DNA of 64,000 bases from Cyclobacteriaceae bacterium. GTDB lineage: Bacteria; Bacteroidota; Bacteroidia; Cytophagales; Cyclobacteriaceae. Position 1 is the stretch's first letter; each line of letters opens with the position of its first letter. The position numbers and the translations under genes are program-made. The stretch covers positions 1,371,501-1,435,500 of the forward strand of contig JAIBBC010000001.1 in the NCBI GenBank assembly GCA_019694875.1, written 5' to 3'. The notes beneath the pieces were generated by a model. That model saw nothing but the letters and a program-made list of their open reading frames with translations, searched no databases and was not told where the DNA came from. This document shows positions 15,595 to 20,874 of this stretch, piece by piece.

Positions 15595-16280
15595 CACATT
15601 CGGTTTTACTGATTCATGGCGCACTGGGTTCGGCTTCGCAGCTTGAACCCGTTAAGATTGCTCTTCAAAATAGCGGTCTTGCTGTTCACAGTATGGATTT
15701 ATCCGGCCATGGTGGGGCAGCATTTCAGACTCAGTTTGGGATCGAACAATTCGCATCGGATGTTCTGAAGTGGCTGGATCAGAATTCACTCCGCACCGTA
15801 AACGTGTTCGGCTACAGCATGGGCGGATACGTATCGTTGGAGTTTGCCAGCAAATATCCCAAGCGCGTTGGTTCAATTGTTACGCTCGGAACCAAGTTCG
15901 ACTGGAGTGTGGAGTCTGCCGCGCGCGAAGTGCGCAAGCTCAATCCTGAAAAAATACTGGAGAAGGTTCCCGCGTTCGCGAGGATACTCGAAAAACGCCA
16001 TGCACCCAACGACTGGAAAGAACTGATTCAAAAAACATCAGCTATGATGATTAGCCTTGGCGGGAAACCTTTATTGACACCCGAAGTTCTCGGGGCAATC
16101 GTCAATCCAACATGGATTTGTCTGGGCGATCAGGACGACATGGCCGACCGGCAGTATTCAGAAGACGTTGCTGGCTTTTTGCCGAACGGAAAGTTTTTGC
16201 TTCTGGAAAATACACCTCATCCCATCGAGAAAGTTTCGATTGGCAAACTAATCGACATCGCTGCACAAGCTTTTCACTAA
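15591..16280 (+). CDS. alpha/beta hydrolase
   Basis: A 229-residue cytoplasmic alpha/beta-fold hydrolase without signal peptide. It shows the oxyanion segment LLIHGALGSASQ, the nucleophile elbow GYSMGG with Ser76, a likely Asp in CLGDQDDM and the catalytic His in NTPHPIEKV. Substrate unknown; the family contains esterases and small-molecule hydrolases. It starts within the prmC stop codon (4-bp overlap), so it is expressed with prmC. Its own stop overlaps that of the convergent STN-domain gene. Confidence 0.88.
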   Translation: MTHSVLLIHGALGSASQLEPVKIALQNSGLAVHSMDLSGHGGAAFQTQFGIEQFASDVLKWLDQNSLRTVNVFGYSMGGYVSLEFASKYPKRVGSIVTLGTKFDWSVESAAREVRKLNPEKILEKVPAFARILEKRHAPNDWKELIQKTSAMMISLGGKPLLTPEVLGAIVNPTWICLGDQDDMADRQYSEDVAGFLPNGKFLLLENTPHPIEKVSIGKLIDIAAQAFH

Positions 16281-18070
16281 AAGAACCGGATGGCTCCTTT
16301 AAAGCCCCACCACATCGTCAGGTGTGTATTGTTATTGTAGTTGTGTTCTTTGATGATTTCAGGCCGATAGTCGGTGAAGATGTCGTAGTAGCCATCGTAT
16401 GAATTTTTCGTCAGATACCCGTTCAGCGTGATGCCAAATGCAATTCCAATCCGGTCGAACGGCTGAACTTCCAATCCCAGGTAAGCTTTGTTGAGAAGAT
16501 TGATTGCTTTGGTAAACTCTCCTTTGTTCAGCTGGTTGCAGGTCAGATCAAAATTCCAGTAAAGCCAATCAAAGATTTGTGGAGCTGTACCGAATCCGTA
16601 GCCAAAGGTCCATTCGGTGCTGCGATCTGTATCATTCGGATCACTTTCGGGTTTTATACCAAACGTAAAGATGTTGTAAAATTTATGCGTACCGGTGCGG
16701 AAGGCAATGTTGGTGTAGAAAATTTCATCTGCTGAAATTTCAAGCTTATGATAACCGTTTCGAACATAGCTCACAAATCCTATGGGAACTCCGCGCAACG
16801 TGTCTGCCACGTTTACTAGTCCGATCTGCATGCCTTTGAGATTGCTCGCATAGTTTGCAATTGGTGCGATCTGAATGCCTTTCATTCTTCGCTTGCTCAC
16901 GTTGGCGATCCCTGATATCTGTGCACCTTTAAATTGTTTAGTCTGGATATTGGCAATACCGGCAACTTGCGCTCCGTACGACCGGCCATTGTTCACGTTC
17001 ACAATCCCTGCAACCTGCAGACCTTTCATGCCCTTACGGTTGGTGTTGAACAATCCTGCCGTTTGAAAGCCACGCATCCGGCCTTCGTTAAAATTCATCA
17101 ATCCCGCAATCTGCACGTATGAAACGTCCAGCAGATCGATGTTAAACAATCCGCCCACTTCCATCACTTTTGTGCCTGCTGAGTAGCCACCCAGCACATT
17201 AAAAGAAAAATCATTAATGGTTCTGGCAGATTCCTTTGCATTGGTTCCCACGAATGGTATGAATGAAACCTGTCCTTTGCGATACTGAAGCGTATCGCGC
17301 ATGCCTTTGGTATTCCAAACCGGTTCGATGGTACGCGCGGTATCCTCCGGAATCGTTTCGACTACAGGCGGTGGCGTTACAACGTTATCTTGCGTTACAG
17401 TCGCGACAGAGTCGTAGTGAACAACCGCGCGGGGAACTTCCGGTTTTATTTCGGGCGATAGTTTAACGTTCACGAACACATACGTGTCTTCTTTCAGCAC
17501 AATCAGTGTGTCGGTATAATTTTTCCGACTGATAGCAATGCGGTTTTCCTCCTGCGGATCTTTCAGCATCATATTGAAATACCCAAACTCATTGGTTACT
17601 GCAGCGGTAAACGTACGCGTATCGTAGAGACTTACACCTGATATTTTTTCGCCCGTTACCGAATTGAGAACATAGCCGTTAATGAAGAACGGATTTTTCG
17701 GTAGAACCGCTGATGAGGTCTTTTCAGGCGCAGGCGGAACCTTGGCCAGGATAATGTATTTACCTTTTTCTTTGAAGGACACCTTTCCCTTGAACAGCTG
17801 TTCCAGGATTTCCCGTACTGTTTTTAACTTGTAGGAAGCAGTAACATTCTGTTCGATGTCGATATCGGAAGACGTGTACGAGAAAGTGATCTTCGCTTCT
17901 TTGGCAATTTTTTTCAATGCCTTTTCTACCGGCTCTTCATGGAATTCGATCGTGATCGTCTTTTCAAGCAACGGAACGTTCTGTGCATTGACTCCGAGGG
18001 TATAGCACACAGCCAAGAGTGTAAGGCAAAACTTACTTCGCACAGCCATTTCCTTTAAGCGTGATTTCAT
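16277..18070 (-). CDS. STN / CarboxypepD_reg outer-membrane protein with LA_2272-like surface repeats
   Basis: The third gene of a sigma/anti-sigma cluster. Residue order: signal peptide (1-29); STN domain (about 37-108, FHEEPVEKALKKIAKEA...VREILEQLF), the part that in FpvA/FecA-type receptors contacts the FecR-like anti-sigma factor; CarboxypepD_reg domain (about 129-205); proline-rich linker (208-250); then about 150 residues (288-432) of a repeat of roughly 20 residues, core GxQxAGIxNxx, with at least six copies such as GLQVAGIVNVN and GAQISGIANVS. This is the pattern of LA_2272-type surface repeats. The end (about 440-597) is beta-rich and may be a barrel. There is no TonB plug or 22-strand barrel, so the usual SusC-type receptor has been replaced. 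The start at 18070 overlaps fecR by 38 bp; Met8 at 18049 is an alternative. Confidence 0.85.
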   Translation of the reverse strand: MKSRLKEMAVRSKFCLTLLAVCYTLGVNAQNVPLLEKTITIEFHEEPVEKALKKIAKEAKITFSYTSSDIDIEQNVTASYKLKTVREILEQLFKGKVSFKEKGKYIILAKVPPAPEKTSSAVLPKNPFFINGYVLNSVTGEKISGVSLYDTRTFTAAVTNEFGYFNMMLKDPQEENRIAISRKNYTDTLIVLKEDTYVFVNVKLSPEIKPEVPRAVVHYDSVATVTQDNVVTPPPVVETIPEDTARTIEPVWNTKGMRDTLQYRKGQVSFIPFVGTNAKESARTINDFSFNVLGGYSAGTKVMEVGGLFNIDLLDVSYVQIAGLMNFNEGRMRGFQTAGLFNTNRKGMKGLQVAGIVNVNNGRSYGAQVAGIANIQTKQFKGAQISGIANVSKRRMKGIQIAPIANYASNLKGMQIGLVNVADTLRGVPIGFVSYVRNGYHKLEISADEIFYTNIAFRTGTHKFYNIFTFGIKPESDPNDTDRSTEWTFGYGFGTAPQIFDWLYWNFDLTCNQLNKGEFTKAINLLNKAYLGLEVQPFDRIGIAFGITLNGYLTKNSYDGYYDIFTDYRPEIIKEHNYNNNTHLTMWWGFKGAIRFF

Positions 18071-19016
18071 GTTCGGTTTTTTCGAGGGTGAGGGATAATG
18101 TTTCAGCGATCACTTCAGCGATCATCTCAATGGTTTCATGGCGGAACGTTACCGTGATGCGGCAGTTTTCAAGAGCAGGGTTGTCAAGCTTCAGTTTGAT
18201 GTCGTACACCTCGTTGATAGATTCAACTACTTCACTCAGTTGTGTATTATCGAATACGAAAATTTGTGTCTTGTACGCAAGCGTATTTTCAGAAGCCTCA
18301 GTCAGTTTGGTGAACTTGCCCGTGGTTTTTGTATAAATACCGGTTTCGTGTTCTTTCAATCTCAAGCCGGAATCCAGCGGAGTGTAAAAAATTACTTCCC
18401 CGCTTTCCACGTAAACCTCCACCGTATCACTTTCCGGGTAAGCCTTTACGTTGAACGATGTTCCAATGTCTTTGATTAGAAGCCCGTTTACCTCCAGCAA
18501 AAACTGCTGGTCACGCTTTTCAGCGATTTTGAAATAGGCTTCACCCTTCAGCCGCGTTTTTCGCATGCGCTTGATCGGATCGTAGTGGTAGTTAACCTCC
18601 GTGTTTTTATTTAAGAATACAGCGGTACCATCAGGCAATGAATTTTCCTTTGTGGCCGTTTGCGCAACAACAATTGTTTTATCCTGTGGTGTTAGGAATT
18701 TCTGATAGGCAAAGATTCCAATCGCCAGTACGACTGCAACAGAAGCCGCTATCCGCCAGCTGAGGCTAATGACCTTCGCCTGATTTTTCTTTTGAATCTT
18801 TTGCTTGAGCTGAATCCAGGCTGCGTCGGTATCGAATACTTCGTGATGCTTCAGTTCGAGACTTTTTTCGAAGACGGTTTTAAAATGTTCGTAGTGCTTT
18901 CGGTTTTCGGCCGACAGTTCAACCCAGTGGTCAAGCACGGTTTTCTCTTCTGCGGAAATTTCTCCCGAGAGCGCCTTGCCAATAAGTGTGTCAATATCGT
19001 TGTAGTCGAACGTCAA
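18033..19016 (-). CDS. FecR family anti-sigma factor
   Basis: A single-pass inner-membrane regulator of 327 residues. It has a cytoplasmic helical part (1-82) that would bind the sigma factor, one membrane segment (about 85-105), a periplasmic FecR domain (about 112-215) with LPDGTAVFLNKNTEV and GEAYFKIA, and a C-terminal STN-like DUF4974 domain (about 250-320). It lies 6 bp after the sigma factor gene and overlaps the STN-domain gene, which is the standard order sigma-FecR-receptor in Bacteroidota. It probably holds the sigma factor until the outer-membrane protein signals through its STN domain. Confidence 0.95.
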   Translation of the reverse strand: MTFDYNDIDTLIGKALSGEISAEEKTVLDHWVELSAENRKHYEHFKTVFEKSLELKHHEVFDTDAAWIQLKQKIQKKNQAKVISLSWRIAASVAVVLAIGIFAYQKFLTPQDKTIVVAQTATKENSLPDGTAVFLNKNTEVNYHYDPIKRMRKTRLKGEAYFKIAEKRDQQFLLEVNGLLIKDIGTSFNVKAYPESDTVEVYVESGEVIFYTPLDSGLRLKEHETGIYTKTTGKFTKLTEASENTLAYKTQIFVFDNTQLSEVVESINEVYDIKLKLDNPALENCRITVTFRHETIEMIAEVIAETLSLTLEKTEHEITLKGNGCAK

Positions 19017-19022
19017 GTTTTC

Positions 19023-19586
19023 TTATCGGATCAGGTTATCAAGCATCAGCAGAAATAAGATCGGCAGGTAGTCGCGGAGTTGTTCGCGCATAATTTTCAA
19101 CGCTTTGCCAATCTGGTTTTCGACCGTTTTCACCGATAGATTTAATTCGGCTGCGATCTCGGCATATTTCAATTCTTCGAAGCGGCTCATCGTAAAAATC
19201 ACGCGGCATTGCTCGGGTAACTTTTGCAGGGCTGCTGCAATGCGTTTCGAAAGCTCGTCCGACTCCACCGGTTGCGCAGAGTCGACCGGGTTGGTCGTCA
19301 GTAATTTTTCCTGGGCGTATTTTTCCTGCATCTTCTTTCGGGTTAAGTGATTCAGGCTGGCATTACGCACCATACTGAACAAATAAGCCTTTACAGATGT
19401 GTGAACATCCAGGGAGTGGCGTTTCTCCCAAAATGCCAGGAAAACAGATTGCACAATTTCTTCAGCTTCATCGCGGTCGCGGAGATACGTGCAGGCGTAG
19501 TTGCACAGCACTCCGTAGTGCTGGCGGAAAACTGCTTCAAAAGCAGCCTCGTTGCCCGGTACCGATTCTTTTTGCGACAATTCCAC
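19023..19586 (-). CDS. ECF RNA polymerase sigma factor (FecI-like, Bacteroidota type)
   Basis: A 187-residue sigma-70 family factor with only regions 2 and 4. Region 2 (about 15-85) contains RDRDEAEEIVQSVFLAFWEKR and the TSVKAYLFSMVRNASLNHL segment. Region 4 (about 115-170) contains LPEQCRVIFTMSRFEELKYAEIA followed by the helix-turn-helix LNLSVKTVENQIGKAL. The C-terminus is hydrophobic (DYLPILFLLMLD), as is common in this group. The start is GTG at 19586; a stop codon lies three codons upstream, so no longer protein is possible. It would direct transcription of the downstream genes or unlinked targets. Confidence 0.95.
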   Translation of the reverse strand: MELSQKESVPGNEAAFEAVFRQHYGVLCNYACTYLRDRDEAEEIVQSVFLAFWEKRHSLDVHTSVKAYLFSMVRNASLNHLTRKKMQEKYAQEKLLTTNPVDSAQPVESDELSKRIAAALQKLPEQCRVIFTMSRFEELKYAEIAAELNLSVKTVENQIGKALKIMREQLRDYLPILFLLMLDNLIR

Positions 19587-19665
19587 TGCACGTTAGTTCA
19601 TGCAAGTTACCCAAAGCATTTGGAGCTAAGACAAGCGAAAAGGTAGATACCCCTATCGAGGTGAA

Positions 19666-20217
19666 TTAATTTATTTCGCAGACCCAGAAGCTGTGGTCGC
19701 GGGTAATGGTTACGAGACCTTCTTTTTCCAAGGGCAGTTCAGGGTGAGCATCCCGCGGATGGAAGTTTAAAGCAGTTCCGGCTGGCAACCATTTTTCGAA
19801 ATGGCCCGATCGGATGAACACCCACCGTTTTCCGTTGCGGATTACGCTCAGATCCAGAGTCTTGAACCCCTCAAATGTTTCGAGATCAGCACCGGATATA
19901 ATGTTAACAGACTTTTGTTTCGATGCGATCAGAAAATGCAGTGCAGTATCCCTTGCATCATTGGTTGCTGTGGTGAGGATTTTCACCGGGGCCTGTTCGT
20001 GTAAGGCAAATTTCCATTTTTCCAGACCGTCTTCCGGTACAATTGCCACATCGATCTTTATCCCCCACGTTAAAACCTGTTCGAGTGCGCGTTCCGTTAC
20101 AATCACAGTCGGGCTCCACTCCAGTAATTGCTGAATGCTCTCGAAGTTCCCGGCTGAGGCGTCATCAATCACCAAAGCCGGCTCCTGATCCTCCCGTATA
20201 ATATGGTGTGACGACAT
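19666..20217 (-). CDS. thiamine pyrophosphokinase-like protein
   Basis: A protein of about 183 residues when started at the ATG at 20217 (MSSHHIIREDQEPALVIDD). The longer open frame upstream would run through the promoter region of the divergent gene and is not used. The pattern LEWSPTVIVTERALEQVL, WGIKIDVAIVPE and the TNDARDTALHFLI segment resembles a group annotated as thiamine pyrophosphokinases in Cytophagales, with an N-terminal nucleotide-binding-like domain and a small beta-rich tail. Canonical TPK catalytic residues cannot be confirmed from sequence alone, so the reaction (thiamine to TPP) is tentative. It diverges from the DUF4254 gene with 39 bp between start codons. Confidence 0.55.
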   Translation of the reverse strand: MSSHHIIREDQEPALVIDDASAGNFESIQQLLEWSPTVIVTERALEQVLTWGIKIDVAIVPEDGLEKWKFALHEQAPVKILTTATNDARDTALHFLIASKQKSVNIISGADLETFEGFKTLDLSVIRNGKRWVFIRSGHFEKWLPAGTALNFHPRDAHPELPLEKEGLVTITRDHSFWVCEIN

Positions 20218-20256
20218 GCAGGTAAAATACGTAACTTGCGCTATAAATGTACGTGC

Positions 20257-20874
20257 ATGCTTAACGCCAATCAATGTTACGAAGCTTTCCAACGAAGTAT
20301 TAACGATTATCACATAACCGATAACGTAGATGCTTCGGTAAAAAACCCGTATCAGGCCGGTAGTTTTGAACATTTACTTTATGCAAAAAACTGGATTGAT
20401 ACCGTTCAGTGGCATCTGGAGGATATTATCCGCCTTCCGGAGATTAACCCGGTAGAAGCGTTGCAAATCAAAAGGCGCATTGATAAATCGAATCAGGACC
20501 GCACCGACATGGTTGAAAAAATGGATGATTATTTTCTTGATCAGTTTAAAACGGTTACACCTAAATCATCTGCAAAGATTAATTCCGAAACACCTGCGTG
20601 GCTGCTTGATCGCATGAGTATTTTGTTGCTGAAGATTTATCACATGAAGGAGCAAACGGAAAGAAAGGATGCATCGCCTGAGCATATCGCAAAATGTAAG
20701 GCCAAGCTTGGCGTTCTCCTGGAACAGCGCAGCGACATGCAGCTTGCGTTTGATCAGCTGATGGAAGACATCAAATCGGGCGACCGTAAAATGAAAGTAT
20801 ACCGGCAGATGAAAATGTACAACGATGCATCGCTCAACCCGATGCTGTATCAAAATTCTTCCGCGAAGGGCTAG
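20257..20874 (+). CDS. DUF4254 domain-containing protein
   Basis: A 205-residue soluble, helical protein that matches the DUF4254 family: PYQAGSFEHLLYAKNWIDTVQWHLEDIIRLPEI near the N-terminus, then IKRRIDKSNQDRTDMVEKMD, and a C-terminal MKVYRQMKMYND segment. No biochemical function is known. The ATG at 20257 is preferred over an in-frame TTG at 20236. It is followed 10 bp later by a GT9 glycosyltransferase, so a role in lipopolysaccharide or surface-glycan assembly is possible by context only. Confidence 0.85.
   Translation: MLNANQCYEAFQRSINDYHITDNVDASVKNPYQAGSFEHLLYAKNWIDTVQWHLEDIIRLPEINPVEALQIKRRIDKSNQDRTDMVEKMDDYFLDQFKTVTPKSSAKINSETPAWLLDRMSILLLKIYHMKEQTERKDASPEHIAKCKAKLGVLLEQRSDMQLAFDQLMEDIKSGDRKMKVYRQMKMYNDASLNPMLYQNSSAKG

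Follow-up and report, generated by a model that had tools for sequence, protein, structure and literature searches.

A candidate cell-surface-signalling operon of a Cyclobacteriaceae bacterium in which a plug-less barrel protein probably takes the place of the TonB-dependent transducer

In the FecI-FecR-FecA, FpvA and FoxA systems, an extracytoplasmic function (ECF) sigma factor is encoded together with FecR, whose C-terminal domain is STN-like, and with an outer-membrane partner that bears an STN domain; signalling of the FecR type has usually been read as receptor-coupled control of import. According to the part of one report that was available to us (PMC11637429), the STN domain of the transducer binds the STN-like end of the anti-sigma factor, and this contact already exists without a signal and shields the anti-sigma factor from proteolysis. 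Two other systems come close. In Vre/PUMA3 of Pseudomonas aeruginosa (VreA-VreI-VreR), as far as the accessible text goes (PMC2729926), the STN-bearing partner of a FecR-type regulator has no TonB-receptor barrel, and in Dma of Bacteroides, likewise from a partial text (PMC13088901), an inner-membrane ECF anti-sigma function is coupled to a C-terminal barrel. Here we describe a locus within 64,000 nucleotides from a Cyclobacteriaceae bacterium (GCA_019694875.1, contig JAIBBC010000001.1, 1,371,501-1,435,500 of the forward strand; this whole stretch is called the window, and positions are window positions). An ECF sigma factor, FecR with its STN-like C-terminal domain and an STN-bearing partner are encoded in the Fec-type order, but no plug or TonB-receptor barrel was detected in the partner, whose C-terminal part is predicted to form a beta-solenoid and an eight-stranded barrel. 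We read the locus, with a probability of about two in three, as a cell-surface-signalling operon in which a plug-less outer-membrane protein replaces the TonB-dependent transducer.

An earlier note on this DNA had claimed a tightly spaced or overlapping sigma-FecR-STN gene trio in the usual order, with a third member that is not a TonB receptor, and both claims held. The open reading frames (ORFs) and their domain matches confirmed the trio, all three genes lying on the minus strand in the ORF list and the STN gene overlapping fecR by 38 nt (Table 1). The sigma factor was matched best by NCBIfam model TIGR02985, and FecR has a single hydrophobic stretch, judged by eye, at about residues 84-105. 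In the 597-aa transducer the STN domain stands N-terminally as in Fec-type partners, whereas Pfam gave no Plug or TonB_dep_Rec match at E <= 1 and, at the same threshold, no TonB- or TolA-type match; the earlier note had named a plug or barrel match in the C-terminal half as evidence against its claim, and no plug was found. The scores of STN and CarbopepD_reg_2 in the window protein alone are below the Pfam gathering score, and we take both domains as real because they were matched at E <= 0.01 across most of nine aligned proteins (8/9 and 7/9, respectively; the nine include the window protein and one paralogue with LA_2272 repeats only). The modelled STN fold begins near residue 38, earlier than the Pfam bound, and in Foldseek this N-terminal fold resembled the signalling domains of PupA (2a02, probability 1.00, E 0.11) and PupB (9cuv, probability 0.99, E 0.35). 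The LA_2272 repeat model NF047436 scored 39.1 bits, above its curated cut-off of 25, and was matched by eight of the nine proteins at E <= 0.01; the related VC2662 family model (NF047437) reached 29.2 bits against a cut-off of 140. A regular expression found seven repeats, with five of the six spacings equal to 16 residues and with hydrophobic residues at positions 2, 4, 8 and 10 and likewise at position 7. Thus the earlier count of about seven repeats behind retained STN and CarboxypepD_reg domains was borne out.

In the AlphaFold model of the transducer (m75d82bbf0127, pLDDT 80), the C-terminal part forms a beta-solenoid with 16-residue coils followed by an eight-stranded barrel, so that the 'beta-rich tail' of the earlier note can be refined to a predicted small barrel of the outer-membrane type. 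The C-terminal end ..GAIRFF looks like a beta-signal by eye. Among homologues the solenoid length varies by single 16-residue steps, which fit solenoid coils: in 30 of 71 ORFs, those in which both landmarks were located, the distances were 101, 133-135, 149-150, 165-166, 182, 197 and 211-214, the other 41 having only one or neither of the two landmarks. A porin-like structure, with the repeats as extra strands of one large barrel, was considered for the alternating hydrophobic residues in the repeat strands; we rejected it for now, since a closed barrel would be expected to gain or lose strands in pairs (32 residues) while the homologues step by 16, and the model, with a solenoid and a separate eight-stranded barrel, also disfavours it. 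On one side of the modelled barrel the turns are short (4, 7 and 5 residues), and on the other the loops are longer on average (5, 12, 7 and 26 residues), a modest contrast read from the model. Together with the even number of strands, these lengths suggest that both barrel ends probably face the periplasm, and because the repeats precede such a barrel, the solenoid is predicted to be periplasmic and not surface exposed.

The transducer gene is a conserved neighbour of a particular sigma/FecR lineage. Matches came from 83 of the 148 genomes of this family in a protein search, and from 146 of 395 genomes across the phylum in a profile search, many of the latter matches being receptors caught by the N-terminal part or LA_2272-only proteins. 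The combined STN-LA_2272 architecture is kept in several families of Bacteroidota. In the fetched loci, fecR was adjacent to 41 of 42 distinct STN::LA_2272 ORFs and to 0 of 28 distinct LA_2272-only ORFs; the earlier note had named a lack of such conservation as evidence against its claim, and the survey found the adjacency conserved. A sigma gene was also seen at 30 of the 42, and 10 of the other 12 have less than 850 nt of flank; the remaining two without a visible sigma gene are L034 and L152, the latter having neither fecR nor sigma. In L152 (3582-5375) no FecR or sigma gene was found in the 8.5 kb fetched, and the genes around it appear by eye to encode glucose-6-phosphate and 6-phosphogluconate dehydrogenases. 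On the trees, the FecR proteins and sigma factors of the STN::LA_2272 loci (LA-type) cluster, with three label changes each against shuffled means of 19.0 and 18.1, and none of 500 shuffles was as low as observed for either. They are clustered without being one single clade: 19 of 20 LA-type sigma factors share one branch (support 95/78) with one sigma factor whose partner is a short STN protein.

The gene after FecR was examined at 85 FecR_C places in 16 genomes, mostly picked for carrying the module. They come from 110 FecR_C matches, 25 of which were dropped: 24 in frames of at least 513 aa, taken as STN domains or broken frames, and one as the second match within the same 488-aa frame. The next gene was a long frame at 57 places, with Plug in 57/57 at E <= 0.01, and an STN::LA_2272 gene at 16, a share that gives no frequency estimate because the genomes were mostly chosen for this architecture. 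At four places it was short, three frames of 402-415 aa having STN by profile and a fourth of 302 aa having it by eye only. Plug was found in none of these 20 non-receptor third genes (16 STN::LA_2272 and four short). The other eight places comprise one duplicate (L136 of L116), three of another kind (L128, L135 and L147) and four without a classifiable third gene (L071, L101, L143 and L151). The third gene of L146 was read from a late ATG, which truncates its STN in alignment A4. The statement in the earlier note that the third member is 'almost always' a TonB receptor is therefore right for most FecR places in these genomes and wrong for the window's own genome (0/2), which has 32 Plug places and only two FecR_C places, one in the window and one on contig C5. 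Neither FecR gene there precedes a TonB receptor, because one precedes the window transducer and the other a 415-aa STN frame.

This second sigma-FecR pair (L154, 7406-10096) has as its third gene a protein whose C-terminal part is barrel-like by eye and lacks LA_2272 repeats, and similar short STN partners occur in L116, L144 and perhaps L114. Another receptor-free FecR_C arrangement was seen in L128 (4655-5860), L135 and L147, where the sigma gene is followed by a frame of 189-201 aa with a FecR_C match and then by a gene of about 400 aa without STN, which in L128 looks helical by eye.

Reading upstream of the sigma genes, we found a promoter-like motif, TAGGGGTA-N13-TTGTC. It was scored in place upstream of sigma genes by counting mismatches and adding 0.5 if the spacing was N14. 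Scores of 2 or less were obtained for 13 of 16 LA-type sigma genes, for none of the 52 receptor-type ones that had sufficient upstream sequence (lowest score 2.5) and for none of 10 scorable loci of other kinds. A relaxed scan, allowing one mismatch per half and spacing of 11-16 anywhere in the locus, gave 18 of 20 LA-type loci and also 9 of 57 receptor-type loci, and for this reason the stricter placed test was used. Among the receptor-type loci, L081 carries one exact copy with N14 spacing at another place in the locus. In L117 (2027) a one-mismatch copy lies 23 bp before the STN::LA_2272 gene itself, which may thus have its own promoter in some species. We infer that the motif is a promoter bound directly by the sigma factor of this operon.

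Exact copies in the window's own genome number two, against none for the reversed pattern: one is the predicted promoter of the window sigma gene, and the other lies 72 bp upstream of a 791-aa receptor gene with CarboxypepD and Plug and without STN, which is followed by a gene for a DUF4249 protein (L157, 2710-6017, distant from the window). This receptor is 41.7-42.0% identical to those of L212, L221 and L239 and 40.5% identical to that of L227 over 790-798 aligned positions, and all four stand behind exact motif copies. Because the sole other exact copy in the genome precedes a TonB-receptor/DUF4249 pair, TonB import looks like an output and not the sensor. The earlier idea of signalling 'without TonB-driven import' can hence apply to the sensor only, since the predicted regulon has plug-containing receptors, one of them in the same genome. 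Weaker matches there were rejected: a scan at two mismatches yields 56 sites, fewer than the 136 of the reversed pattern, and of the two one-mismatch sites, one lies 3 bp upstream of what may be the ATG of a GDPD gene and the other before no convincing gene.

Across the 148 family genomes, 89 exact sites were counted against 37 for the reversed pattern. Among genomes with a strong homologue (E < 1e-45, a threshold chosen afterwards), 27 of 32 have the exact motif (72 sites against 9 reversed), compared with 14 of the 116 other genomes (17 against 28 reversed; Fisher p 1.3e-14). Splitting by any match gave 35 of 83 against 6 of 65 genomes (p 6e-6). With up to one mismatch, the motif stands 17-62 bp upstream of the ATG start of LA_2272-only genes in eight relatives' loci and of receptors of about 780 aa in four; it also precedes two DUF2807 genes, the start in L194 being doubtful (0 bp), and exact copies precede small proteins that weakly match OmpW, PagL or OMP_b-brl, the Pfam scan having covered those of L189 and L190 out of L188-L190. 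Targets were examined at 40 of the 89 exact sites, chosen for not being sigma promoters and for lying in module-bearing genomes. Their next ORFs fall into a receptor-like cluster of 13 (eleven of 779-804 aa, two of 351 and 313 aa), 11 DUF2807 proteins, one family of 206-226 aa with 10 members, one LA_2272-only protein (L226), two FAD enzymes and three singletons. Plug was found in 8 of the 40 at E <= 0.001, CarbopepD_reg_2 in 12 and PAP2 in two. The exact copies thus mark a coherent predicted regulon of receptors without STN, DUF2807 proteins, a small secreted family and LA_2272-only proteins. The 206-226 aa family (L213, L215, L223, L228, L231, L237, L240, L244, L248 and L249) is apparently secreted, has few or no Pfam matches and shows by eye a motif GYGA..NKFT, not in every member; its genes lie 10-27 bp behind exact copies. 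The FAD-binding enzyme genes (L214 and L219) lie 166-171 bp behind exact copies in two genomes of one genus, by chance or as a real target.

The locus could work in the following way. The C-terminal barrel would anchor the transducer in the outer membrane, where its loops may sample the surface, and the LA_2272 repeats would form a rigid periplasmic stalk with the STN domain at its far N-terminal end, touching the STN-like C-terminal domain of FecR. FecR would span the inner membrane and keep hold of the ECF sigma factor. Ligand binding at the barrel, or a disturbance of the barrel or the outer membrane, might alter the STN-FecR contact; FecR would then be processed, and the sigma factor would use TAGGGGTA-N13-TTGTC promoters to transcribe its own operon as well as envelope genes (TonB receptors without STN, DUF2807, small secreted or barrel proteins and LA_2272-only proteins). 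By analogy, the STN-FecR logic described for known transducers fits here, with the solenoid as a stalk and the barrel as an outer-membrane anchor or sensor.

A more specific version, which we consider possible though clearly tentative, is that the transducer monitors its own outer-membrane assembly or the distance between the membranes: an inserted barrel would keep STN on FecR and shield it, and failed insertion or detachment would lead to FecR cleavage and expression of remodelling genes. The modelled barrel is small, and eight-stranded barrels of this size are generally without a wide channel. In addition, the solenoid changes in length by whole coils, and most predicted targets are envelope proteins that do not belong to one uptake pathway. 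The accessible parts of two reports offer precedents, a signalling domain that protects the anti-sigma factor without a signal (PMC11637429) and the tethering of an anti-sigma domain to a C-terminal barrel by Dma, which affects vesiculation (PMC13088901). Against this, we recognised neither chaperones nor members of a barrel-assembly family in the ORFs that follow the 40 sites, and the TonB receptors among the targets suggest a response to nutrients or ligands too. Going one step further, the solenoid might act as a molecular ruler, the FecR-STN-solenoid-barrel bridge reporting outer-membrane position or barrel assembly and the sigma factor remodelling the outer membrane by way of its own class of promoters, those of TonB receptors among them; this we regard as doubtful, and if it is true, TonB receptors would be under a sensor that is no transporter itself.

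Three other explanations were considered. Instead of sensing, the transducer might be one of the products that the sigma factor controls, a barrel with a structural role and a leftover STN, while FecR responds to something else. The STN-less LA_2272-only paralogues have motif copies of their own, so that the barrel part appears useful without signalling, and the STN::LA_2272 gene of L152 stands alone; however, STN has been retained, and fecR adjoins nearly all STN::LA_2272 ORFs and none of the LA_2272-only ones, making this explanation unlikely. A little less likely again is that the repeats are exposed on the surface and bind a ligand directly, as the earlier note supposed and as the name 'surface repeat' given to NF047436 by NCBIfam implies. 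One hydrophobic face formed by the hydrophobic repeat positions should indeed be covered by something, but STN must be periplasmic to reach FecR, the repeats sit between STN and the barrel, and the turn and loop lengths, for all their modest contrast, point to periplasmic barrel ends, so that the surface placement was not supported. We consider it very improbable that the protein is a decayed TonB-dependent transducer with the plug lost and part of the barrel kept: STN and CarboxypepD are shared with receptors, but in its C-terminal half the protein matches LA_2272 repeats and small barrels, and the architecture recurs in several families. The plug-less transducer of a FecR-type operon remains our preferred reading.

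Table 1 Features of the locus in window positions
Feature	Position	Strand	Details
ECF sigma factor gene	19023..19586	-	187 aa, GTG start; TIGR02985 E 2.4e-54; Sigma70_r2 and Sigma70_r4_2
FecR-type sigma regulator gene	18033..19016	-	327 aa, TTG start; PF04773 E 1.6e-11, FecR_C PF16344 E 2.2e-12
Plug-less transducer gene	16277..18070	-	597 aa; signal peptide (by eye), STN, CarboxypepD, predicted beta-solenoid and 8-stranded barrel
STN domain	17744..17887	-	residues 62-109 by Pfam; PF07660 E 7.8e-5
CarboxypepD_reg-like domain	17453..17683	-	residues 130-206; CarbopepD_reg_2 PF13715 E 1.6e-5
LA_2272 repeats	16763..17221	-	residues ~284-436; NF047436; predicted beta-solenoid, 16-residue coils
Predicted C-terminal 8-stranded barrel, outer-membrane type	16277..16756	-	residues 439-597 and stop; ends ..GAIRFF
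Predicted ECF promoter TAGGGGTATCTACCTTTTCGCTTGTC	19630..19655	-	upstream of sigma gene; exact match G000:C1:1391130-1391155

The gene at 19666-20373, upstream of the sigma gene and on the same strand, had no match beyond a weak one to thiamin pyrophosphokinase (E 0.05). Some 80 nt separate its end from the sigma gene, and this gap holds the promoter-like motif.

Neither an STN-LA_2272 partner of FecR nor the TAGGGGTA-N13-TTGTC motif was found described in a literature search that left out most subscription journals and bioRxiv and in which the motif could not be searched as words; the available part of a flavobacterial promoter study (PMC9723704) gives a CGT-box ECF motif and no word starting with GGGG. 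The models NF047436 and NF047437 share the repeat with the window protein but span the repeat part only, without STN. We rate the locus as a variant of FecR-type cell-surface signalling that is new to the literature searched and has an unusually clear predicted regulon. Unlike in the Fec-type systems, the TonB receptor is here a predicted target elsewhere in the genome; the module appears to part sensing from transport, with a plug-less barrel in the place of the sensor and plug-containing receptors among the predicted targets, and its motif offers a short, testable list of candidate target genes per genome. As far as the accessible descriptions allow, the locus matches neither Vre/PUMA3 nor Dma fully. 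VreA is small and mostly soluble, has a TolA/TonB-like C-terminal domain and stands in another gene order (PMC2729926), whereas the window protein has a predicted barrel and solenoid. Dma is one polypeptide with a disordered tether, and the available text mentions no STN (PMC13088901); here FecR and the barrel protein are encoded by separate ORFs, and the two proteins would meet via STN-type domains, with a solenoid as the stalk. If confirmed, the module would be a second route, besides Dma, by which a barrel is linked to an ECF sigma factor in Bacteroidota.

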